DNA from: Bacillus amyloliquefaciens DSM 7 = ATCC 23350
GTDB lineage: Bacteria; Bacillota; Bacilli; Bacillales; Bacillaceae
Assembly: GCF_000196735.1 (NCBI RefSeq)
Contig: NC_014551.1
Coordinates: 810,501 to 874,500, forward strand
Direction of reading: 5' to 3'
Length of the DNA stretch: 64,000 nt
In this document: one piece after another, positions 3,073 to 16,051 of the stretch
Layout of the letters: each line of letters begins with the position of its first letter
Position numbering within the stretch: the stretch's first letter is position 1
Notes under the pieces: generated by a model
Told to the model about the DNA's origin: nothing
Database searches by the model: none
What the model saw: the letters and a program-made list of their open reading frames with translations, nothing else
Translations under genes and position numbers: made by a program

Positions 3073-4473
3073 GTGAATCAACATCAAAAAAAGGCGCCTG
3101 CCGAATTGAAAATCGGACAGACATTTCCGCTGACCATCAAACGCCTCGGCATTAATGGAGAGGGCGTCGGCTATTTTAAGAAAAAGGTTGTCTTCGTTCC
3201 CGGCGCTCTGCCCGGCGAAGAAGTCGTTGCCGAAGCGACAAACGTTCAGCCGAAATTTTCAGAAGCACGCGTCAAAAAAATCCGCAAGCCGTCTGAACAC
3301 CGCGTCACGCCGCCTTGTCCGGTATACGATCAATGCGGCGGCTGCCAGCTTCAGCATCTGGCCTACAGTCAGCAGCTTCGCGAAAAGCGCGATATCGTCA
3401 TTCAGTCTTTGGAACGTCATACGAGATTCAATGTTGAAGAAATGAACATTAAAGAAACGATCGGAATGGACAACCCGTGGAATTACCGGAACAAAAGCCA
3501 GTTTCAAGTCGGACGCTCGCAAAGCGGCAGCATCATTGCCGGCTTATACGGACTTGATTCCCATAAAATTGTTCCGATTAAGGAATGCATTGTCCAGCAT
3601 CCGGCGACGAACAAAACAACGGGTATTGTCCGCCGCATATTGGAAAAACACAACGTATCTGTTTATAACGAACGGACCAAAAAAGGCGATGTCCGCACCA
3701 TCGTGACGAGAGTCGGTTTTGAAACAGGCGAAGTGCAGGTCGTGCTTGTCACGGCGAAAGAGACACTTCCGAATAAAGACGAGATCGTCAAAGCCATTCA
3801 GAATCGTCTGCCCGAAGTGAAATCGATTATTCAAAACATCAACGGCGCGCGCACATCCGTCATTTTCGGGGACAAAACAAAAGCGCTGGCCGGAAGCCAT
3901 GCCATTCAAGAGGTACTTGGTGACGTGTCATTTGAATTAAGCGCCCGCGCTTTCTTCCAGCTCAACCCTGAGCAGACGGTCAAGCTGTATGACGAAGTGA
4001 AAAAAGCGGCGCAGCTGACCGGAAAAGAAAAAGTCGTTGACGCATATTGCGGCGTCGGTACGATCGGCATGTGGGTCTCAAGCGGGGCGAAAGAGATCCG
4101 CGGCATGGACGTCATTAAAGAATCAATTGACGATGCGAAGAAGAACGCCAAAAAACACGGCATCAAAAACGCGGCATATGTCACAGGAACAGCTGAACAC
4201 TGGCTCCCGAAATGGACGAAAGAAGGCTTCCGCCCAGACGTGGTCATCGTCGACCCGCCGAGAACGGGCTGCGACGGAACATTTTTAGATACCATCAAAA
4301 AAGTAAAACCGAAACGCTTCGTCTACGTATCCTGCAATCCTTCCACACTGGCGAAAGACTTGCAGGCGCTGTCGAAGGACTATCGCGTCGAATATATTCA
4401 GCCTGTGGATATGTTTCCGCAGACGGCTCATGTGGAAGCTGTGGCGAAGCTTGTATTGAAATCGTCTAATTAA
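3073..4473 (+). CDS. rlmCD: 23S rRNA (uracil-5-)-methyltransferase RlmCD (YfjO)
   Basis: A 466-aa SAM-dependent RNA m5U methyltransferase. Order of parts: an N-terminal TRAM RNA-binding domain (about residues 10-70); an Fe-S cluster segment with cysteines in [10 protein letters not shown] plus a later KEC; a SAM-binding motif [11 protein letters not shown]; then VDPPRTGC and [12 protein letters not shown], which carries the nucleophilic Cys. In B. subtilis this enzyme modifies two uridines in 23S rRNA. The start is GTG. A -10-like TATACT sits at 2993-2998. In B. subtilis dus1 (yfjN) follows; here about 10.6 kb of foreign DNA separates them. Confidence 0.93.
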
Positions 4474-4888: not shown

Positions 4889-5077
4889 TTAAAGTGCCGA
4901 TAAGGCAATGCGTTTATCCGGATCAGCAGATAAAATCAATATGATCTTTAATTGGACTAGGGGTTTGATAATAGTCAACAATGTAATAACCACTTTTTGG
5001 CTTAGCGTAGACAACATGTGCTGCTCTAGTTCTAGTAAGGCCTTTGCAACTGTCCTATGACAGGTGCATTTTTTCAT
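4889..5077 (-). pseudogene. GntR/MocR-type regulator, N-terminal remnant
   Basis: The open 62-codon frame begins with a winged-helix-like stretch (RTVAKALLELE). If the reading frame is shifted by one base in the middle, the translation continues as KPKSGYYIVDYYQ and then SPIKDHIDFISADPDKR. That is the usual wing-plus-linker of GntR regulators of the MocR/PdxR class, which continue into a PLP-dependent aminotransferase-like domain. That domain is missing. The fragment is therefore a truncated, frameshifted relic at the left side of the island. The family assignment is from motif reading only. Confidence 0.5.
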
Positions 5078-5279
5078 GTATTAATAATAGTTGGCATCGT
5101 TACATTTTGCTTAATTAGCTAATTGTTCACTATGATTATGAAATGGTTTGTTAAGGGTGAATTTGAATGAAAAGCAATATAAAAAGAGGTCTGATAATTG
5201 GATTTATTGGAGCGACTTGTTTTAGTTTACATTACTTGCTTCAAGTATCGCTGTCCCTATTTTGATGAGACAATTGTTG

Positions 5280-5720
5280 GATTGGGTAGGACAGCAAAAG
5301 GGCTGCATACGTGGATTTTGTAAGTATGATTGGGAATGGTATTACAAAGTAACACCGAGAATAAAGCCGAATAAAAAGAGAAAAGCACTGTTGATTGTGA
5401 AGAGGGATAAAGAGTGTTTGGGACTGCTAAAGAAGAAGTAAGAATAGCGGGAATTATTTTAGAAGCAGAAAGAAAACCAACTAGAGTGAGCCCTGCAAAT
5501 TTTAGGAGAACTTTATGAGTTGGTTCATGGTCCCGTAATCAAAATTTAGTCCGTACACAAAATCGTATAGAGGGATTTAGGCTAAGGAAGGTTAAGTGGG
5601 CTATTGAAGATAGATTAAAGCAAGGGAAAGAATTGGTCTGTTTATAAGGTGCTGCTACATGCTGGGTTTTGTGCGATAAAGAAATCAACAATAGCTAAAG
5701 AATTGAATACTCAGGCTGAA
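5280..5720 (+). pseudogene. Probable TnsD/TniQ-like transposition protein, decayed C-terminal remnant
   Basis: No intact frame, but successive frames on the plus strand read as one damaged protein: YDWEWYYKVTPRIKPNKKRK, then KRDKECL, then (after a frame change) TAKEEVRIAGIILEAERKPT, then GFRLRKVKWAIEDRLKQGKE and KVLLHAGF. The order Y-x-x-x-W...P, RD, kPtRv, R-x-x-k-W-a-i-x-x-L-x-x-G and an AGf end resembles the C-terminal domain of TnsD-type target selectors of Tn7-like transposons. At least two frameshifts and several stops are present. The assignment is from memory of the family and should be tested by a profile search. Confidence 0.42.
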
Positions 5721-5734
5721 ATAAAATATGACAC

Positions 5735-5761
5735 AAGCAACTTAGTAATATTAAGTTGCTT
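5735..5761. terminator. Perfect inverted repeat, possible terminator
   Basis: AAGCAACTTA and TAAGTTGCTT form a perfect 10-bp stem with a 7-base loop. It lies between the transposon remnant and the 3' end of the protease gene. No clear T-run follows on either side, so it may be a terminator or a transposon-end relic. Confidence 0.45.
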
Positions 5762-5903
5762 GTGAACTCAACTTATTTGGTTATTCTCAATATCCCGTAA
5801 ATACAATTTATTTCATCTCTACTTCATCATCATTATCGTCTAGTAATCTTTTTTTATTAATCAAAGTATTTTTAGTGAAAGTTCGAGAACTACTTAATAT
5901 CTT

Positions 5904-7286
5904 TTATCTCTCAATATTAAGCAATGATTCGTAAGCATTTACGATACCGCTACCTACTTCATTCTTATCTAAGTTTTCAACGTGGTCTGTGTTCTGATAT
6001 AAGTTTTCTTCAACCTTACGATTTGGCATTTCCTCTCCATATTTTTCGTAGTATTCTGTCTTTAATAGGGCTGCTGTAGCAGTTACTATTGGAGCTGCTA
6101 CACTTGTCCCTAAAGTAGGTTCATATCCCTTTTGAAAGCCTAGTGACTTACTTAGCGGAGTTTGCGGGATATTGACAGGGGAAGTAGTCCATACCAAGCT
6201 ATATAGATCAATCTTATTTGTATCCAGATCACCACCTGGGGCTGCAATTGAGATGTTTTTTCCATAATTTGAGTAAGAAGCTTTTGTATTTTGCGCTGTG
6301 GTGGCAGATACAGTAATTACATCGTTATCTCCACCAGGAAGATGTAGGATATTGTCCTTTGGTTTACCTAATTGTTCTGCAAGTTTTTTTGAATTTGAGA
6401 TATCATATCCATGGTTTCCAGCTGCTGCAACAATTAAAGTATTGTGTTTTCTAGCGAATTTAAAAGCTTTTTCAAAAAGTTTTATAGTCTCTCTATCATC
6501 TTTATCTTTTTTTGATAAAAAAGTAGATAAACTTAAATTAATTACGTCCATATCATCTTCCGTAGCTTTAACAATTGCGCTTATAACCCAACTTCTTTTA
6601 GATTTACCGTTTTTATCAAATACTTTATACGGCACTAAACCAAGATTTGGTCCAACTCCTTTTACATCCCCATTAGCAGCAATTATTCCAGCCACAGAAG
6701 TTCCATGCCCATAAAAGTCTTGTGTATTATCTTCAACTGGAACAAAAGACTCTCCAGTATCTACAATATTTTTTTTGAGGTCTGGATGATTGAAATCTAT
6801 GCCTGAATCGATTATCCCTACTTTTGTATTATGAGATCCTTTATTTATATGATAACTTCGATAATCATTTGTAACTTGCTTGATATTCCATAACCAACTG
6901 TCATAAAGAGTGTCATTACCTTCCGTGAATTGTGATGAAGGTGCCACTTTAGCAGGAATATGTTTACTTTTATCAGGAAGAGAAATTTCTTTATCCTCAA
7001 TAATTTCATTTGCGTCTAATTTTTCTTTAGCAATATCTTTGATTGCTGAGAATTGGCTTGGTTTTATATTATTTATTACCAATAAATCTAGTTCTTTAAT
7101 ATAATTTGTTTCTATATTTGAATACTTTTCCTGAACCTTGTTTATTGTCGATTCACTAATTTTTGAGTCGAGGTTAATTATGATAGATTCATCATAATTT
7201 GATTCTTCAGCACGAGAGCTAACAGGTTGTAAACTGGATACAATTACAAATAAGAAAACTATCGAAATTCTTCTTAAATCCTTCAT
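5904..7286 (-). CDS. Secreted subtilisin-like serine protease, probable lanthipeptide leader peptidase (LanP)
   Basis: A 460-aa S8 peptidase. It has a Sec signal peptide (positively charged start, hydrophobic core about residues 6-20, likely cleavage near SSRAEE), a pro-region to about residue 130, and a subtilase domain. The triad is complete: Asp near 160 (IIDSGIDF), His near 194 (GHGTSVAGI) and Ser near 395 (GTSVAAP). The frame is open upstream to 7355, but the ATG at 7286 has an AGGAG site. It is divergent from the exporter/LanKC/precursor genes. Because the ABC transporter has no C39 peptidase domain, this protease is the best candidate to remove the leader outside the cell; that role is inferred. 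An unrelated secreted protease cannot be excluded. Confidence 0.85.
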   Translation of the reverse strand: MKDLRRISIVFLFVIVSSLQPVSSRAEESNYDESIIINLDSKISESTINKVQEKYSNIETNYIKELDLLVINNIKPSQFSAIKDIAKEKLDANEIIEDKEISLPDKSKHIPAKVAPSSQFTEGNDTLYDSWLWNIKQVTNDYRSYHINKGSHNTKVGIIDSGIDFNHPDLKKNIVDTGESFVPVEDNTQDFYGHGTSVAGIIAANGDVKGVGPNLGLVPYKVFDKNGKSKRSWVISAIVKATEDDMDVINLSLSTFLSKKDKDDRETIKLFEKAFKFARKHNTLIVAAAGNHGYDISNSKKLAEQLGKPKDNILHLPGGDNDVITVSATTAQNTKASYSNYGKNISIAAPGGDLDTNKIDLYSLVWTTSPVNIPQTPLSKSLGFQKGYEPTLGTSVAAPIVTATAALLKTEYYEKYGEEMPNRKVEENLYQNTDHVENLDKNEVGSGIVNAYESLLNIER

Positions 7287-7740
7287 TTTTTTATACTCCT
7301 TTCTCTTTATACATTTCATTATAAGATTGTATATAACCCACCCTTCACATTCCAAAAAAATGAAATATAAGTATATTTAATTCAATTTTATAAAATATAA
7401 GTAAATCAGTCAATGCATATTTTTCTAATTAGAAGTGATTATCCCCGGAAACGTCCCTTTAGTATGATTAATTTAAATTTCTTTTTATTCTTTTATACTA
7501 CGCCTATGGTTTTGTGGGCAGAAATATTAAGAGTGAATATACATTTCGTAATATACAAAAGTAGAATAATGTATAACCAAAGACCTGTTTTTTTATAATT
7601 TGTAAAATTATATATTGACTTACAGTTATTGAGTGTGAAATATTGTTTATAGGAAAATCAGGAAAGATATGGCGTATGTCATTTCAAGAGTCATTCGATA
7701 TAAAAAGTTGAGACATTGGAATTAAACGAAAGAGGTGAAA
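7287..7740. promoter_or_regulatory. Divergent promoter region between protease and ABC exporter
   Basis: The region is very AT-rich and I see no convincing gene. For the protease (minus strand) a perfect -10 TATAAT lies at 7318-7323 with only a weak -35 upstream. For the exporter (plus strand) a TTGACT at 7615-7620 is a plausible -35 with an AT-rich -10 region around 7638-7646. The open frame at 7413-7598 lacks a ribosome site and is not called. Confidence 0.4.
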
Positions 7741-9513
7741 ATGATGACCAACCCTAATTTTAAATCGAAAGAGTTTTTCTTCTTACTGAGTAAAACCAGA
7801 CCGAATATAAGATTATTTATATTGGCAATATTTTTAAGTGGATTAAGCGCAATAGCTTCTACCTTAGTGCCTCATTATTTAAAAAGTCTAATAGACTATT
7901 ACAATATTCATGAAAAGATCAATTTGTGGGACCTATTAGGACTGCTAGGGATATTTTTAAGCAGCGGAGTAATTGGGGCAGTTGGTAGTTATATGTTAAG
8001 TGTAGTAGGATATAATGTTGTCGCAAATCTCAGAAATTTATTATGGGAAAAGATAGTTATACTGCCTGTAGAATTTTACGATAAGAATCGTTCTGCGGAT
8101 ATAGCAAGTAGATTTGTTAATGATACTACGGTGATTTACAACTTAGTAAGTAACTCTTTTTCGCAATTTATCAATGCTATATTAATAGTGCTTTTTTGTG
8201 GATTTTGGTTGTTTTAGTATGATTGGCAATTGACACTAGTGATTGTCGTAGCAATTCCAGTTTATTTATTAATTTTTATACCTTTAGGAAGAATTTTATC
8301 TAAATTATCTAAAATGACGCAAAGCTTAACAGGTGAATTAAATGTAAGAGCTGTTGAAACAATATCTGCAATAAGACTGGTTAAATCTTCAACTGCAGAA
8401 AAATTACAAGTAGAAAAAGGAAAAGAAGATGTTGAAGCTTTAAGAAGCATAGGCCTAAAGCAGACAAAATGGATGGTTATTTTAAACCCTATCATTAATT
8501 TAATGATGATGCTTATCATTATTAGCATAATTGGATTCGGAGGGGTTAAATTAGCCAATGGAAGTTTATCGCCAGGAACGTTTATAGCATTTCTGACACT
8601 TATGTTCTATATCATGGGTCCACTTAATAACTTTGGGCTATTCTTTACTCAAATACAAAAGACAATAGGTGCAACAGAAAGAATTTCTCAATTGATATAT
8701 GAGCAAGGAGAAGATCAGCATAAAGGAAAAGAATTAGCGGAAACCAATAAAGATTTAGTGATTGAAAATTTATCATTTTGCTACAGTAATGAGGATAAAG
8801 CATTTTCCTTGAAAAATATTAATTTAATAATAAAAAGAGGAAGTGTTAATGCCTTAGTAGGTCCTAGTGGTAGTGGTAAAACCACAATCATCTCTATTCT
8901 GGAGAGATACTACAAGCCCAACAGCGGAAATATTTATTTTGGTGACGAGAATATTGAGTTATTTTCATTAAATTCATGGCGTAGCCAAATAGGATATGTA
9001 GCACAGAATCATGATTTAATAAGCGGTACTATTAGAGACAATCTCATCTTTGGTTTAGAAAATCCCCCAAATGAAAAAAGAATAGTAGAAGCATGTAAGA
9101 AGGCATATGCATGGCAATTTATAAGTGAATTGCCTAACAGTTTAGAAACTAATATTGGAGAAAAAGGTCTGAACTTATCAGGAGGACAACGACAAAGAAT
9201 TGCTATTGCGAGAATGTTTCTGAAGAATCCAAATATAATCTTTTTAGATGAAGCAACTGCAAGTCTTGACAGTCATTCTGAACGAATTGTGAACGAAGCA
9301 ATGAAGAAGCTTATGAAGGATAGAACCGCTATTATAATAGCACATAGGTTATCCACCATTATAAATGCTGACAATATCATTTTTATGGAAAACGGTGAGA
9401 TCACAGGTCAAGGGAATCATTGGGAGTTAAAGAATAGTCATAAATTGTATCATCAATTCTGTGAGCAGCAGTTTAAAGAAGATAGTACCGATCCATTAGT
9501 ATTAACCAATTAA
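7741..9513 (+). pseudogene. ABC exporter (fused TMD-NBD) for the lanthipeptide, interrupted by an in-frame TAG
   Basis: The frame reads as one 590-codon type I ABC exporter with a single amber codon at 8215-8217 (codon ~159). On both sides the frame is the same, and the sequence around it (FWLF-stop-YDWQLTL) matches the expected W-x-LTL region between membrane helices. The NBD is complete: Walker A GPSGSGKTT (~375), signature LSGGQ (~479), Walker B IIFLDEAT (~500), H-loop AHRLST. There is no N-terminal C39 peptidase domain. A TTG at 8230 could restart translation of a shortened protein without the first helices. AGAGGTG precedes the ATG at 7741. Either the exporter is dead, the codon is read through, or the base is a sequencing error. 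Confidence 0.85.
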
Positions 9514-9540
9514 GAGCGGCTTAAGAGAGGCGAAAACAAA

Positions 9541-12138
9541 ATGGACAAAAAATTAGTTTATTTCCAACACATGAGTGAAGATTCAAAATACTATATAGAG
9601 AAAAGCCCAAATGCAGAGACTGATCCATATGAAGTACATAATATACCAAATTACTATACTGTTAGTACAGAATACAAATCACCATGGAAGTTTTATAATA
9701 ATCCAAATCATACCCTCAAAGAACAAGGCTGGAAAATACACGTAAGTGCAACAATGAATAATGCTCAGGATATATTAGAAGTTGTGAGTCAAATTATATT
9801 TAAACATCAGATACCATTTAAACATATTAAAGATAAACAATCTCTATTTAATATGAATTCGAAGCATGGTAATCGAACTTCATCTGGAAAATTTATCGCT
9901 ATCTATCCTTCCTCTAATAACATGTTCTTCAGGTTATTGAATGAACTTTATGAAGAATTAAAACATTATGAGAATGGACCATACATACTAAATGATAAAT
10001 CGTGGAAGGACAGCAATATATATTACCGATATGGTGCGTTTAAGAATATTTACAATGAAAGAGGAGAACTTTGTATTAAAGACGAAAATGGAAACCTAAT
10101 TCCGGATAATAGACAGCCGTATTATAAAATACCTGAATTCGTAAGTGATTTTGATCAGTATTTAGATTCCAAGAATAACTTATTAGATACTCAAGATGTA
10201 AGTAATTTTAATGATTATGAGTTCCAAGGAGTCCTTAGGTTTAATAATGGTGGCGGTATATATACTGGAATAAGGAAATTGGATGGGAAAAAAGTAGTAA
10301 TCAAAGAAGGAAGACCTAAAGTAGGGTTAGATGGTCAATTTAATGATGCGATTGATAGATTGAATATAGAATACGAAGCATTAAATAAACTTACAGATGT
10401 TGAAGGTGTTGTTAATGTACTTGATTACTTTAAAGCTTGGAAACATGTATTTTTAGTTGAAGAGTTTGTAGAAGGTGTAACTCTTCAAACCTGGTGTGCA
10501 ATCAATTATCCGTTCAACGTTGAAAATGATAAAAATGAATACATTAGTAAGGTGAAAAAAATAATTAATAGCTTGGTCAAAACAATTAAACTAGTGCATA
10601 GTAAAGATGTTGGTATGGGAGATTTACAACCCCAAAATATAATGATAACCCCCGAATCAAATGTTAAGATTATTGATTTTGAGGCTGCTAGTGCTCTCTC
10701 TGAAGAAAACGGAGCGTTGCAAACAATTGGCTACACAAATAAGAAAAATAAGAATCATAAAGAGCGTGATTGGTATGCACTAAAGAAAGTTTTAAGATTT
10801 TGTATTCTGCCAATAGGTCCGGTTGCTGATATAGAAGAAACCATTAAAAAGAAACATGATATGTGGATAGAGGACGAGTTTGGCAAAGATGTCTATCAAT
10901 ATGTTGTAAATACAGAAAATCTATGTGACAAATACTTATCTGACACCAAAGAAAAGATATTCAAGAATAGTTATGACAGTAAAATACAAAAAGAAATGGA
11001 CATGTCAAAAGTAATAAAAGGATTGAGAAACAGTATAGAGAGTAATATTTTGCCCAACAGCTCGCTAATTCATGGCGATGTACGGCAATTTGTAATGCCA
11101 TCTGGAAAGTTAAATGTACTAACTGGGGGAACTGGAGCTGCATTGGCATTGTACAGATCTGGAAACGTCAGCAAGGAAGTTTGGGATTGGATTGAAAATG
11201 TTTTACTTGAAAAATTGAATGTTCTTAATGATGATGTTGGGTTATTTACAGGACGAGCTGGTATCGCAGCAACATTGTATGAATTGGGATACATAGAGCA
11301 AGCTATGGACTTATTCAATAATCTGTCATATGAAGATATGAAAGATATTTCATTAAGGTCAGGATTGTCGGGAATAGGTCTTTCATTAATTAGCTTATAC
11401 ATGGAAGAAAATAATAATGATTTTTTGGTTACTTCTGAAAAAATTGCTGATCAGATAGAAAAAAGGATTATTGAAGATGATAAATTATCAGTGACTGATT
11501 TTGCAGCAGTACCTATAGGTTTGATTGATGGTTGGTCAGGAATATCTTTATTCTATGCGGCATTATATTCAGTTACTAAGAATGAAAAATATTATTTAAA
11601 ATCAAAAGAATATATTGAGCGAGATTTAAAACATTGTAAGGTAGATGAAGAGACGAATACTTTGCAAACATATGATGATCAAAACCCTCGATTATTACCC
11701 TATTTATCTGGGGGATCAATCGGAATAGGAATTGCTATTTGGTATTTAAATTATGTAAAAAATAATAATTTATTTAGAGAAGAATTAGAGCAAATAATCA
11801 ATTTAAATAAAGTAAGGATCGCATATAGCGGTGGATTGTTTGATGGGATCGGTAGTTTCTTGTTAATCCCGCCAATGACTAAGGAAAAAAATGAAATCAG
11901 TCAGCATATTGAGCTGGCATTGAGAAAACTAGAATTGTTTCTTATCCGCAAAGATGATCAAGTATTATTCCCTGGAAACTTCAGCTTTCGTTTAGCAGAT
12001 GATTACTACTCCGGAAGTGCTGGCATAATATTGGGCATAAACTCTATCCAGTTTTCAAATCCGTTATATTGGTTGCCAATAATAAAAATTGATAGTTTCT
12101 TAAGAAAGACAAAAAAAGAATTGTTATTAAACAATTAA
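9541..12138 (+). CDS. Class III lanthipeptide synthetase LanKC
   Basis: An 865-aa trifunctional enzyme that phosphorylates Ser/Thr of the precursor, eliminates phosphate and cyclises. The N-terminal ~200 residues are the lyase domain, ending in GPYILNDKSW and SNIYYRYGAF, typical of LanKC/LanL. The kinase domain has a Gly-rich loop (~235-243), Lys in VVIKE (~254), the catalytic loop GDLQPQN (~360, with Met-Gly before the Asp instead of His-Arg) and DFE in place of DFG (~379). The C-terminal ~370 residues show the LanC-like glycine repeats (TGRAGIA, SGLSGIG, DGWSGIS, SGGSIGIG, SGSAGI), but the positions of the Cys-Cys-His zinc ligands are not occupied. That separates class III from class IV. 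It lies 27 bp after the exporter and upstream of the precursors. Confidence 0.93.
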   Translation: MDKKLVYFQHMSEDSKYYIEKSPNAETDPYEVHNIPNYYTVSTEYKSPWKFYNNPNHTLKEQGWKIHVSATMNNAQDILEVVSQIIFKHQIPFKHIKDKQSLFNMNSKHGNRTSSGKFIAIYPSSNNMFFRLLNELYEELKHYENGPYILNDKSWKDSNIYYRYGAFKNIYNERGELCIKDENGNLIPDNRQPYYKIPEFVSDFDQYLDSKNNLLDTQDVSNFNDYEFQGVLRFNNGGGIYTGIRKLDGKKVVIKEGRPKVGLDGQFNDAIDRLNIEYEALNKLTDVEGVVNVLDYFKAWKHVFLVEEFVEGVTLQTWCAINYPFNVENDKNEYISKVKKIINSLVKTIKLVHSKDVGMGDLQPQNIMITPESNVKIIDFEAASALSEENGALQTIGYTNKKNKNHKERDWYALKKVLRFCILPIGPVADIEETIKKKHDMWIEDEFGKDVYQYVVNTENLCDKYLSDTKEKIFKNSYDSKIQKEMDMSKVIKGLRNSIESNILPNSSLIHGDVRQFVMPSGKLNVLTGGTGAALALYRSGNVSKEVWDWIENVLLEKLNVLNDDVGLFTGRAGIAATLYELGYIEQAMDLFNNLSYEDMKDISLRSGLSGIGLSLISLYMEENNNDFLVTSEKIADQIEKRIIEDDKLSVTDFAAVPIGLIDGWSGISLFYAALYSVTKNEKYYLKSKEYIERDLKHCKVDEETNTLQTYDDQNPRLLPYLSGGSIGIGIAIWYLNYVKNNNLFREELEQIINLNKVRIAYSGGLFDGIGSFLLIPPMTKEKNEISQHIELALRKLELFLIRKDDQVLFPGNFSFRLADDYYSGSAGIILGINSIQFSNPLYWLPIIKIDSFLRKTKKELLLNN

Positions 12139-12168
12139 AACTCTAACACTTATATTCGATGATAATCA

Positions 12169-12197
12169 TTGAAGATTAGAATTAAAGCAGTTAATAT
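12169..12197 (+). promoter_or_regulatory. Putative promoter of the precursor array
   Basis: TTGAAG (12169-12174), 17 bp, TAATAT (12192-12197), placed between the LanKC stop and the first precursor. It would let the small precursor genes be transcribed more strongly than the enzyme genes. Assigned by eye to sigma-A. Confidence 0.45.
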
Positions 12198-12229
12198 ACA
12201 GAACTTATGAAGGGAGGTGAGAAAAGAAA

Positions 12230-12349
12230 ATGAAAGAGGTGCTGGTACTTCAACAATTTGATGAAAAATCTGAAGTGGAGCCTACGGCATGGACTGTTAC
12301 TCTAACAACTATTTCAGTTACATTATCTACCCTTAGTAATCATTGCTAA
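12230..12349 (+). CDS. Class III lanthipeptide precursor 1 (LanA1)
   Basis: A 39-codon gene with a strong AGGGAGGTGA ribosome site 9 bp before the ATG. The leader begins MKEVLVLQQFDEKSEVE and contains the hydrophobic-L-Q motif (VLVLQQ) by which class III leaders are recognised. The core is TAWTVTLTT...STLSNHC. It has many Thr/Ser and a single Cys as its last residue, and it ends in the S-x2-S-x2-C pattern used for lanthionine/labionin rings. It is the most divergent core of the main array and shares Trp only with precursor 3. Core limits are inferred; leader cleavage is unknown. Confidence 0.85.
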   Translation: MKEVLVLQQFDEKSEVEPTAWTVTLTTISVTLSTLSNHC

Positions 12350-12400
12350 TGAGAGAGAAGGATAATCTAAGAAAGAGTACTTGAAAGGAGGTGAAACTAA

Positions 12401-12529
12401 ATGAAAGATGTATTGGAACTTCAACAACTGAATGAAGGAACTGAAGTAGAAGCTTCAAAAGGCAAAGGTGGCTTACTTACACTAATCACAACGATAGTTG
12501 GCTCATCTACTATTAGCAACAACTGTTAA
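12401..12529 (+). CDS. Class III lanthipeptide precursor 2 (LanA2)
   Basis: A 42-codon gene behind AAAGGAGGTGA. The leader starts MKDVLELQQLNEGTEVE; the core region runs ASKGKGGLLTLITTIVG and ends SSTISNNC. The last seven residues give S-x2-S-x2-C. The core is nearly identical to those of precursors 4, 5 and 6 (differences Ile/Val and Ser/Thr), so these four are recent duplicates. The gene lies 51 bp after precursor 1 and is probably cotranscribed with it. Confidence 0.85.
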   Translation: MKDVLELQQLNEGTEVEASKGKGGLLTLITTIVGSSTISNNC

Positions 12530-12555
12530 GATATTTAAGAGGAGTGGATGAACAA

Positions 12556-12675
12556 ATGAATGAAGTACTAGAGTTGCAACAATTGAGTAAAGGTTCAGAA
12601 GTAGAAACAGCTGGGTGGACACTTCTAACAACACTCATCGGTACATCTACTATTAGCAATAGCTGTAATAAATAA
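12556..12675 (+). CDS. Class III lanthipeptide precursor 3 (LanA3)
   Basis: A 39-codon gene. The ATG at 12556 follows AAGAGGAG; an earlier ATG at 12548 stops at once. The leader starts MNEVLELQQLSKGSEVE, the core is TAGWTLLTTLIGT, then STISNSC with two extra residues (NK) after the Cys. It is the intact parent of the two decayed copies at 12861 and 13137, which keep the AGW core but have lost the leader. Confidence 0.83.
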   Translation: MNEVLELQQLSKGSEVETAGWTLLTTLIGTSTISNSCNK

Positions 12676-12695
12676 TAAAAAGGAGGTGAAATTGA

Positions 12696-12827
12696 ATGAG
12701 AGATGTATTGGAACTTCAACAACTGAGTGAAGGAACTGAAGTAGAAGCTTCAAAAGGCAAAGGCGGCTTACTTACACTAATCACAACGGTAGTTGGCACA
12801 TCTACTATTAGCAACAACTGCGGATAA
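12696..12827 (+). CDS. Class III lanthipeptide precursor 4 (LanA4)
   Basis: A 43-codon gene behind AAAAGGAGGTGA. The leader starts MRDVLELQQLSEGTEVE; the core is ASKGKGGLLTLITTVVG, ending in TSTISNNC plus a terminal Gly. It is the first gene of the tandem repeat and differs from precursor 5 at Ser/Asn11 and in the extra C-terminal Gly. Confidence 0.83.
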   Translation: MRDVLELQQLSEGTEVEASKGKGGLLTLITTVVGTSTISNNCG

Positions 12828-12860
12828 AAGACCAAACATAACAAAAAAAGATTTTCTGCG

Positions 12861-12944
12861 AGTGCTGAAGTAGAAACAGCTGGGTGGGCACTTCTGACAA
12901 CGCTCATCGATACATCTACTAATAGCAATAGCTGTAATAAATAA
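12861..12944 (+). pseudogene. Leaderless degenerate copy of precursor 3 (psi-LanA3a)
   Basis: The frame SAEVETAGWALLTTLID...STNSNSCNK matches precursor 3 from residue 14 onward, but no start codon or ribosome site precedes it; the leader is replaced by the sequence AAAAAAAGATTTTCTGCG. The core also differs: Thr22 to Ala, Gly29 to Asp, and Ile33 to Asn inside the ring motif. It cannot be translated as a precursor. Confidence 0.75.
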
Positions 12945-12964
12945 TAAAAAGGAGGTGAAATTGA

Positions 12965-13093
12965 ATGAGAGATGTATTGGAACTTCAACAACTAAATGAA
13001 GGAACTGAAGTAGAAGCTTCAAAAGGCAAAGGCGGCTTACTTACACTAATCACAACGGTAGTTGGCACATCTACTATTAGCAACAACTGCTAA
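12965..13093 (+). CDS. Class III lanthipeptide precursor 5 (LanA5)
   Basis: A 42-codon gene behind AAAAGGAGGTGA, second copy in the tandem repeat. The leader starts MRDVLELQQLNEGTEVE; the core is ASKGKGGLLTLITTVVG, ending TSTISNNC with Cys as last residue. The core is identical to that of precursors 4 and 6 apart from their terminal Gly. Confidence 0.83.
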   Translation: MRDVLELQQLNEGTEVEASKGKGGLLTLITTVVGTSTISNNC

Positions 13094-13136
13094 TAAAAGA
13101 CCAAACATAACAAAAAAAGATTTTCTGCATATTTCT

Positions 13137-13221
13137 AGTGCTGAAGTAGAAACAGCTGGGTGGACACTTCTTGACAACACTCATCGATACATCTACTATT
13201 AGCAATAGTTGTAATAAATAA
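13137..13221 (+). pseudogene. Leaderless, frameshifted copy of precursor 3 (psi-LanA3b)
   Basis: Same relic as at 12861, with SAEVETAGWTLL at the start. One extra T in CTTCTTGACAACACTC shifts the frame in the middle of the core; the ring motif STISNSC is still readable in another frame. No start codon precedes it. Confidence 0.72.
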
Positions 13222-13241
13222 TAAAAAGGAGGTGAAATTGA

Positions 13242-13373
13242 ATGAGAGATGTATTGGAACTTCAACAACTGAATGAAGGAACTGAAGTAGAAGCTTCAAA
13301 AGGCAAAGGTGGCTTACTTACACTAATCACAACGGTAGTTGGCACATCTACTATTAGCAATAACTGCGGATAA
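13242..13373 (+). CDS. Class III lanthipeptide precursor 6 (LanA6)
   Basis: A 43-codon gene behind AAAAGGAGGTGA, third and last copy in the tandem repeat. The leader starts MRDVLELQQLNEGTEVE; the core ends TSTISNNC plus Gly. The leader is identical to precursor 5, and the core including the terminal Gly is the same as in precursor 4. Confidence 0.83.
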   Translation: MRDVLELQQLNEGTEVEASKGKGGLLTLITTVVGTSTISNNCG

Positions 13374-13428
13374 AAGACCAAACACACTAAAAAAGTACGC
13401 TTGGTCTTCATACATTATATGAAAGCCT

Positions 13429-13462
13429 AAACAGGAAAAGGACCCCAATCCTTTTCCTGTTT
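13429..13462 (+). terminator. Strong terminator after the main precursor array
   Basis: AAACAGGAAAAGGA and TCCTTTTCCTGTTT form a perfect 14-bp stem around a CCCCAA loop. It is placed 55 bp after precursor 6 and before precursor 7, so the last precursor is probably a separate or readthrough-dependent unit. Confidence 0.75.
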
Positions 13463-13627
13463 CTAAAAAAGGAATAAATTTAGTTTTCATATAAATTCTT
13501 TTCACTATCCCATACTTCTTATTTATTGTCAATGGAAAATGAATGAAGTGGGTGACTTAGTTCTTTATTTATATGTAAGACTAAATTCAAATGTTAAATT
13601 TATCAAATGAAGAATGGAGGATTAATT

Positions 13628-13771
13628 ATGAATAACGTATTAGCATTACAACAATTAAATAATAGTGCCGAGGTGGAACCGCAAGTGGGACCAACGATAA
13701 CAACTATTACAGTAATACCTACAATGGTTATATCCTTAATAAGTAATTATTGCGACAATCATGCTTCATAA
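13628..13771 (+). CDS. Class III lanthipeptide precursor 7, divergent core (LanA7)
   Basis: A 47-codon gene with a GGAGG site 7 bp before the ATG. The leader starts MNNVLALQQLNNSAEVE and keeps the L-x-LQQL motif, but the core is unlike the others: PQVGPTITTITVIPTMV, then ISLISNYC followed by five residues (DNHAS). The S-x2-S-x2-C ring pattern (SLISNYC) is preserved. It lies beyond the array terminator. It probably gives a second product; whether the tail after Cys stays in the product is unknown. Confidence 0.8.
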   Translation: MNNVLALQQLNNSAEVEPQVGPTITTITVIPTMVISLISNYCDNHAS

Positions 13772-13834
13772 TATAATGATTTTAGATTGACACTTGGCTA
13801 AAAAAGTATTGCAGAAAAGGAAACTGATAATTAA

Positions 13835-14119
13835 ATGGATAAAGTAAACAAAAAACGACCGTTATATAAAAGAAGTTGGTTTCAAACGGTTTTGGCATTT
13901 TTAGTTTCACAGCTTTATTTTAATTTTGTAGAATTAACGGGATGGGGTCCTAAGTATAGAGAAATGAATGGCTTCCCAGCAAACATAGTTGAACTGGATT
14001 TCTTTCAAAAATATCTTTCATTCTATGAAAATCCATGGTTTAATATTGTCACTGTTTTCTTAGGGGTTTTCACTGTTATACAAATAATCACCGGTATAAC
14101 AAAGGATATTCGAAATTAA
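13835..14119 (+). CDS. Small two-TM membrane protein, YfzA-like; immunity candidate
   Basis: 94 aa with a basic N-terminus (KKRPLYKRSW), one hydrophobic segment at about residues 17-35, a polar loop containing ELTGWGPKY, a second segment at about 70-88, and a charged end. Size and the ELTGW region resemble the YfzA-like family of unknown function (memory-based, unverified). It starts 63 bp after the last precursor on the same strand with a weak AAGGAA site. By position it could protect the producer; this is inference, and no canonical LanFEG or LanI gene is visible in the island. Confidence 0.6.
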   Translation: MDKVNKKRPLYKRSWFQTVLAFLVSQLYFNFVELTGWGPKYREMNGFPANIVELDFFQKYLSFYENPWFNIVTVFLGVFTVIQIITGITKDIRN

Positions 14120-15067: not shown

Positions 15068-16051
15068 ATGATAGATAATTTCTGGCGTGAATTGCCACGG
15101 CCATTTTTTGTGCTGGCACCAATGGAAGATGTGACGGATGTTGTTTTCCGCCATGTCGTAAGTGAAGCAGGCAGGCCTGATGTGTTTTTTACTGAGTTTA
15201 CAAACTCAGAAAGCTATTGTCATCCGGATGGAAGGGATAGTGTCCGCGGCCGTTTGACTTTCACGGAGGATGAACAGCCGATGGTTGCCCACATATGGGG
15301 AGACAAGCCTGAAAACTTTCGTCAAATGAGCATTGGGATGGCGGAATTAGGGTTTAAAGGCCTGGATATCAATATGGGCTGTCCCGTACCTAATGTGGCG
15401 GGGAACGGAAAGGGAAGCGGCCTGATCTGCCGTCCTGAAGTTGCAGCCGAATTAATACAAGCAGCGAAAGCGGGAGGACTGCCGGTAAGTGTGAAGACCA
15501 GACTTGGCTACACGGATGTAGACGAATGGCGCGGCTGGCTGACACACGTATTGAAGCAGGATATTGCCAATCTTTCCATTCATCTTCGTACCAGAGCGGA
15601 AATGAGTAAAGTAGATGCGCATTGGGAGCTGATCCCGGAAATCAAGAACCTTCGTGACGAGATAGCGCCAGATACCCTTTTGACGATCAATGGGGACATT
15701 CCTGACCGGGAAACCGGCTTAAAACTTGCCGAACAATACGGTGTTGATGGGATTATGATCGGACGAGGTATTTTTACAAATCCATTCGCCTTTGAAAAGG
15801 AGCCGAGAGAGCATAGCAGTAAGGAATTGCTTGATCTTTTAAGGCTGCATCTGGATCTTCACGATAAATATTCAAAATTAGAAGCACGTCCATACAAACC
15901 TCTTCCTCGCTTTTTCAAGATTTATCTCCGCGGATTTCGAGGAGCAAGTGAATTAAGAAATCAATGCATGAACACAAAGTCAACAGATGAAGTGCGTGCA
16001 TTGCTCGATGACTTTGAGAGAAAGTATCTTGATGGGATGGAGCAGCAGTGA
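15068..16051 (+). CDS. dus1: tRNA-dihydrouridine synthase (YfjN)
   Basis: A 327-aa FMN-dependent reductase of uridines in the tRNA D-loop. The TIM-barrel shows the DUS signatures APMEDVTD near residue 18, [13 protein letters not shown] in the middle, KTRLGY and the phosphate-binding [13 protein letters not shown]. It is the orthologue of B. subtilis YfjN, which directly follows rlmCD there. The ATG is preceded by AAAGGA at 15050. Its GC-richer sequence marks the return to core genome. Confidence 0.92.

Follow-up and report, generated by a model that had tools for sequence, protein, structure and literature searches.

A class III lantibiotic island of Bacillus amyloliquefaciens with an interrupted exporter and a YfzA-family gene predicted to act in self-protection

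The island and its setting

The window analysed here is a stretch of 64,000 nucleotides of Bacillus amyloliquefaciens DSM 7 (positions 810501-874500 on one contig of 3,980,199 bases, NC_014551.1), and its positions 5904-14119 hold a class III lantibiotic system. The reading that we prefer, with a probability of about 0.58, is that this system, likely the AmyP/LanIII-6 cluster described for the species (PMC10885120, PMC9576775), has an interrupted exporter, and that its yfzA gene is a self-protection gene. The latter role is predicted from the retention of yfzA beside scars of the cluster in five relatives without the biosynthetic genes. The cluster itself is very likely already known. What is new is that the exporter is interrupted and that YfzA can be argued to be a self-protection gene that is both retained and mobile, a proposal that on comparative grounds has an even or slightly better chance of being right.

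The island is flanked by an rlmCD-like gene (3073-4473) on one side and by dus (15068-16051) on the other, and its G+C content is 32% across 5904-14119 versus 50% and 47%, respectively, in these two genes. The gene order is: an S8 subtilase on the minus strand, the frame of an ATP-binding cassette (ABC) exporter, the lanthionine synthetase LanKC, the precursor array (seven genes intact, two decayed) and a YfzA-family gene. The first-pass annotation of this DNA had proposed a class III locus between rlmCD and dus, which is borne out by the flanking genes and the profile matches. It missed two things that matter most in what follows: the stop codon in the exporter and the retained YfzA-family gene at 13835-14119, the last gene of the span that it described.

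Retention of yfzA after loss of the cluster

The features concerned are the following.

13750..13777, plus strand: promoter-like site (TTGCGA, 16 bases, TATAAT) at the end of precursor C and ahead of yfzA; 10 of 12 matches
13835..14119, plus strand: YfzA-family membrane protein of 94 residues, putative immunity protein; PF14118, 72.9 bits (cut-off 27)

The gene adjoins precursor C, and its product has two hydrophobic stretches, starting at residues 16 and 71, the first of them weak (mean hydropathy 1.26 over 19 residues). The TATAAT element at 13772-13777 is kept in all seven loci aligned. The promoter scan as a whole gave no excess of sites (30, versus a mean of 36.3 in shuffled sequences).

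The fate of yfzA was followed at the rlmCD-dus site within the genus. Thirty-four genus genomes gave a strong dus match, and the 17 with dus at 95% identity or more were compared, i.e., the window, the Bacillus nakamurai NRRL B-41091 locus (L033) and 15 of 16 further regions. From the remaining 17, L059 was fetched and left out of the site count, since its rlmCD match reached only 43%; its genome (G017) is the outgroup. Two sites carry the cluster, five (L045, L046, L050, L055 and L057) carry yfzA with no LanKC gene, and ten carry neither. The latter ten also lack the 3′ flank of yfzA: in nine of them, 317-568 bases separate the two flanking genes, while the other (L051) holds 5.6 kb of other DNA. 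The possibility that YfzA is a resident gene older than the island is ruled out by these ten sites, where cluster, scars, YfzA and 3′ flank are all missing.

In every one of the five yfzA-only relatives, remains of the cluster precede an intact yfzA open reading frame (ORF). The remains show three kinds of junction. In L046 and L057, the tail of LanKC is followed by the end of the precursor array; in L050 and L055, the region upstream of the exporter and its start are followed by a damaged precursor C; the third kind, that of L045, is weighed below. Indel (insertion or deletion) events per 100 aligned sites amount to 0.21 in yfzA versus 1.22-3.56 in four flanking non-coding stretches, and substitutions to 0.061 versus 0.089-0.141 in the same four stretches.

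All three kinds of junction are at the array side. This favours a different interpretation, in which YfzA would be a passenger with another, perhaps general envelope function, spared because the deletions have their ends within or beside the upstream precursor array, which is rich in repeats. Such an explanation is possible, but we hold it to be rather doubtful: it does not sit well with the lack of YfzA at the ten compared sites without cluster or scars, nor with the scarcity of indels in yfzA, and further evidence bearing on it is given in the next two sections.

As to whether the gene is expressed, a YfzA-like protein of the island type is listed (7% coverage) among the identifications by liquid chromatography-tandem mass spectrometry of a B. 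velezensis bacteriocin preparation (PMC11897483), which hints at expression of yfzA.

A side observation concerns the site itself. The 5.6 kb of other DNA that occupy it in L051 (8336-13936, genome G002) are the reason to think that the rlmCD-dus site may be an insertion hot spot.

Probable movement of the scarred locus between clades

Two of the yfzA-only loci with the same scar belong to different branches of the core tree, L046 (genome G025) to the B. amyloliquefaciens clade and L057 (genome G013) to the other clade. When both genomes are compared, the intergenic DNA with the shared scar is 94.3% identical over 1380 sites, versus 83.8% for rlmCD and 77.0% for a 12-kb core region. Since the scarred DNA is so much more alike than the core region, these identities point to a likely transfer of the scarred locus between the clades, in a form in which YfzA is the one cluster gene left intact. 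This apparent crossing also speaks against YfzA being a mere passenger. By visual comparison, the YfzA protein of L057 is P0241, named B. mexicanus, while that of L046 is nearest to P0242, named B. siamensis, with 212 members.

YfzA and LanKC in other genomes

Among 397 genomes of the order, LanKC was found at E ≤ 1e-150 in 9 and PF14118 at E ≤ 1e-5 in 31; a class-level search gave seven further LanKC loci. One locus (L075) was left out of the YfzA-LanKC count, its contig of 3.8 kb being too small to include readable flanks. A YfzA-like gene is present in 3/3 loci whose LanKC is at least 70% identical to that of the window. One of them is L082 (genome G176), of another family, where an uninterrupted exporter, LanKC (70%), precursors, an ABC ATPase with its permease, a homologue of precursor C and YfzA (64%) stand in one row. 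An AmyP homologue was not found in the L082 stretch, part of which reads N. The position of YfzA behind LanKC and precursor C in another family is a further argument against the passenger interpretation and in favour of a self-protection gene.

In connection with protection, ATPases of 284-290 residues occur in 6 of the 13 fetched LanKC loci other than L033, and none in the window island. Since that kind of protein is missing there, we infer that YfzA is the sole protection candidate visible in the window cluster.

Several observations weigh against a role of YfzA in self-protection, and they should be considered together. First, among the 15 LanKC loci with readable flanks, a YfzA-like gene is found in only five, with none in the other ten, and two of the five score under the Pfam cut-off of 27 (26.3 and 20.5 bits). 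Second, canonical YfzA paralogues, 34-38% identical to the island form, occur in eight genomes of the family without LanKC, so a link to lantibiotics need not hold for the whole Pfam family PF14118; this occurrence is also what would be expected of a passenger with a general function. Third, the pairwise ratio of non-synonymous to synonymous substitution rates (dN/dS) of YfzA spans 0.10-1.18 over 21 pairs, and it is near 1 in several of them, again as the passenger explanation would have it. The value is 0.93 for the two species with the same scar, the high values coming in part from differing C-terminal tails. With such a span, codon-level constraint on YfzA is not established. Fourth, no more than about 39 bases, from the tail of precursor C, make up the scar in L045. 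Fifth, the structure model of YfzA is weak, with a mean predicted local distance difference test score (pLDDT) of 57. Finally, a sigW mutant of B. subtilis shows slightly raised levels of yfzA (PMC3498285), and so the idea of YfzA as a sigma-W resistance gene is not supported.

Two limits to the role of YfzA follow from these data and searches. YfzA as a universal class III partner is ruled out by the ten LanKC loci without a YfzA-like gene. The literature found contained nothing tying YfzA or PF14118 to lanthipeptides or to class III immunity, in a search that most subscription papers, including the primary AmyP paper, fell outside of.

The following observations were made on the same genomes. 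In L085 (11890-12222) and L086 (7616-7945), both of another family, the weak YfzA-like protein (26.3 and 20.5 bits, respectively) is encoded between an ABC ATPase/permease pair and LanKC. The canonical paralogues of the eight genomes (L064-L071) show no evident common neighbourhood, as far as can be told from ORF positions and a comparison made from L065 only. Concerning B. subtilis YfzA and PF14118, the island protein belongs to the family by score (72.9 bits) and is 34-38% identical to the canonical copies. To our knowledge, the PF14118 YfzA family has no assigned function.

The interrupted exporter

The exporter frame is read in two pieces.

7744..8217, plus strand: N-terminal piece of the ABC exporter, ending in TAG at 8215-8217; PF00664, 57.8 bits (on 7735-8217); stop at codon 158
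8218..9513, plus strand: remaining frame of the ABC exporter, with the rest of the membrane domain and the ATPase; PF00664 and PF00005 (on 8230-9513)

A single in-frame TAG (8215-8217, codon 158) interrupts the frame 7744-9513 within the membrane domain. The first-pass annotation had described an ABC exporter without a C39 domain. No C39 domain is found among its Pfam matches, but the exporter is not one intact gene, given the stop. Eight exporter homologues (P0121-P0128, 589 or 590 residues) read through the position of the stop, and the exporters of B. nakamurai and L082 are uninterrupted. In view of the in-frame TAG, the window strain is, from its sequence, probably a non-secretor, with modified precursors staying inside the cell.

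It could be argued that the exporter is still functional, either because the TAG is a sequence error, or because it is read through, or because the two pieces cooperate, and that the peptide is secreted. The frame is otherwise intact and encodes, codon for codon, the same protein as two of the eight homologues, which are found on 87 and 43 contigs and differ from it at that codon only; the rest of the cluster is also undamaged apart from the two decayed precursor copies. On the other side, a C-terminal fragment identical to the second half of the window exporter (P0135) is found on 4 contigs, be they from independent strains or repeats of one. A working exporter seems unlikely, and loss of export is the interpretation retained here.

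LanKC, the protease and the precursors

The synthetase and the protease are as follows.

9541..12138, plus strand: class III lanthionine synthetase LanKC, 865 residues; NF038151, 830.9 bits (cut-off 575); alignment with ThurKC (8sap)
5904..7355, minus strand: S8 subtilase, likely the AmyP-type leader protease; PF00082, 164.9 bits; catalytic triad motifs

The presence of LanKC, as first annotated, is confirmed by its NF038151 score. It is a single chain with RamC_N lyase, kinase and LanC-like domains (PF25816, PF00069 and PF05147), and its alignment with the solved ThurKC (8sap and related entries) spans almost the full protein. LanKC is a class III synthetase. A class IV enzyme, the assignment that had been named as a way in which the annotation could be wrong, is ruled out by two results: the class IV (LanL) model NF038150 gives 321.2 bits, under its cut-off of 650, and at the three zinc-ligand positions LanKC has S723, F767 and D768, residues identical to S726, F770 and D771 of ThurKC. 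These ThurKC residues are discussed in the work that describes its cyclase as metal-independent (PMC10604976).

The closest LanKC protein is named Bacillus amyloliquefaciens (99% identical, 67 member sequences), and the next closest are named B. halotolerans and B. velezensis (94%). Eighty-four plasmid records encode a LanKC relative, every one at less than 60% identity. LanKC proteins named B. nakamurai also exist at 44-45% identity; we presume that they may be of the bacinapeptin type.

The subtilase had been described as secreted and of divergent type. The S8 match and the catalytic residues D183, H217 and S418, found in the expected motifs (numbering of the 483-residue ORF), agree with a secreted-type subtilase, and its N-terminus, judged by eye, resembles a signal peptide. 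The true start is probably an inner ATG. The copy in the syntenic B. nakamurai locus is 94% identical. Upstream of the protease gene, short broken ORFs are seen at window positions 4908-5765; their longer B. nakamurai version (L033, 5840-6208) has no Pfam match.

The precursor array is composed as follows, the bounds of the decayed copies being approximate (about 12828-12964 and about 13094-13241).

12230..12349, plus strand: precursor A0, motif SEVE; NF038154, 50.7 bits; ring motif
12401..12529, plus strand: precursor A1, motif TEVE; NF038154, 59.7 bits; ring motif
12556..12675, plus strand: precursor B, motif SEVE; a GTG start at 12544 is possible; NF038154, 50.0 bits (on 12544-12675); ring motif
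12696..12827, plus strand: precursor A2, motif TEVE; ring and protease motifs
12828..12964, plus strand: decayed B-type precursor copy without leader; translation and alignment to intact B
12965..13093, plus strand: precursor A3, motif TEVE; ring and protease motifs
13094..13241, plus strand: decayed B-type precursor copy without leader and with its core frame broken; translation and alignment to intact B
13242..13373, plus strand: precursor A4, motif TEVE; ring and protease motifs
13628..13771, plus strand: precursor C, motif AEVE; in-frame upstream ATG at 13607; NF038154, 52.6 bits (on 13607-13771); ring motif; its L082 homologue lies beside YfzA

The count of seven intact class III precursors is upheld: the L-x-LQQ leader and the S-x2-S-x2-C motif near the C-terminus occur in 7/7. 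They fall into four types, with A in four copies and A0, B and C in one each. The motif (T/S/A)EVE is common to all seven, and its T, S and A variants are all present. Four of them were scanned with NF038154 ("class III lanthipeptide"), and all four match with 50.0-59.7 bits (cut-off 22).

It can be observed that B-type copies decay repeatedly by loss of the leader (two in the window and one in B. nakamurai, L033 13290-13432), while A-type copies stay intact. Since the B. nakamurai B-type copy has a similarly replaced leader region, comparison of the two loci suggests that the leader loss is older than the split of B. amyloliquefaciens and B. nakamurai. The A-type copies of B. nakamurai (L033, at 12862, 13158 and 13433) show TDVE in 3/3 instead of TEVE, which is natural variation in the recognition site. 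The idea that the A-type precursors are homogenised species-wide was considered and found weak, with 2 fixed sites in 126 and a difference of only 2 bases between the first copy of one species and that of the other.

In more distant class III loci, two further observations were made. With LanKC at 49-50% identity, L106 (8596), L107 (8199) and L108 (10863) have an ORF that resembles a precursor but is very short, contains one Cys and ends in His-Trp-Pro-Trp-Gly. In L087 (7041-7742), a gene for an apparent trypsin-type protease, recognized by eye, lies beside the precursors.

Proposed mechanism and significance

The following course of events would account for the data. LanKC would phosphorylate and dehydrate Ser and Thr residues of the leader-bearing precursors and close the S-x2-S-x2-C ring, known to be labionin in the peptides already published. 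Once modified, the precursor would leave the cell through the exporter. Cleavage at the EVE motif by the secreted S8 protease would then set the active peptide free, and the membrane would be guarded against it by YfzA, a small protein having two hydrophobic stretches. In the window strain, the interrupted exporter would block secretion, probably making it a protected non-producer. In the relatives, yfzA and its promoter-like site have survived the loss of the biosynthetic genes and have likely been passed between species as a stand-alone resistance gene.

A broader proposal, to which we give an even chance, is that PF14118 includes a dedicated class III immunity protein which, in the B. subtilis group, has repeatedly outlived its cluster and travels as a stand-alone resistance gene. 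Many carriers would then be protected non-producers, and the window strain would represent the first step towards that state. The value of the case is that it offers a 94-residue candidate together with natural experiments in which the cluster is present, interrupted, or lost with the gene kept. If true, part of a Pfam family would gain a function, the tolerance of these peptides by related non-producing biocontrol species would be explained, and there would be a clear example of how producers decay into protected non-producers.

Comparison with known systems

The cores had been regarded as not recognizable, and the locus as possibly new. This novelty is not supported, because the literature already describes B. 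amyloliquefaciens class III peptides that are processed by an S8 protease, with (T/S/A)EVE as the motif. AmyP is the S8 leader protease for such peptides, and the (T/S/A)EVE motif matters for its activity (PMC10885120). LanIII-6 of B. amyloliquefaciens has two precursors, with six and seven dehydrations and one labionin each; the peptides are cut at a unique site by a cluster-encoded S8 protease and are active on Enterococcus faecium and Staphylococcus aureus, and the results agree with those of another group on the same cluster (PMC9576775). The likely identity of the island with the AmyP/LanIII-6 cluster is based on a match of descriptions and motifs, not of precursor letters, and at that level the window precursors belong to a characterized family. 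The published peptides are presumably the amylopeptins, a name that a literature search did not bring up.

What the window locus shares with AmyP/LanIII-6 is the species name, the LanKC class, the S8 protease within the cluster, the (T/S/A)EVE motif and a ring motif fitting one labionin. It differs in its seven intact and two decayed precursors, versus the two named for LanIII-6, and in its interrupted exporter. The difference in precursor number, and the fact that the likeness rests on descriptions instead of letters, would fit a new class III family distinct from the published peptides. This is nevertheless very improbable, considering that the closest LanKC (99%, 67 member sequences) bears the same species name and that the in-cluster S8 protease, the T, S and A variants of the published motif and the ring motif are all present. 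A new lanthipeptide family is therefore rejected at the family level by the AmyP/LanIII-6 descriptions.

The B. nakamurai NRRL B-41091 locus has the same site and the same gene order, with a LanKC 96% identical, but its exporter is uninterrupted (592 residues), it has six intact precursors plus one decayed copy, and its A-type motif is TDVE. The andalusicin system of B. thuringiensis, that of ThurKC, is likewise of class III, with seven precursors and the metal-independent cyclase residues; it differs in having a methyltransferase in its cluster and M16B leader proteases outside (PMC10604976), whereas the S8 protease of the window is encoded within its cluster. Bacinapeptins of B. nakamurai, like the paenithopeptins, are also class III peptides of Firmicutes (PMC8960859), but their systems have M16B-type proteases and a methyltransferase (PMC8960859, PMC10885120).

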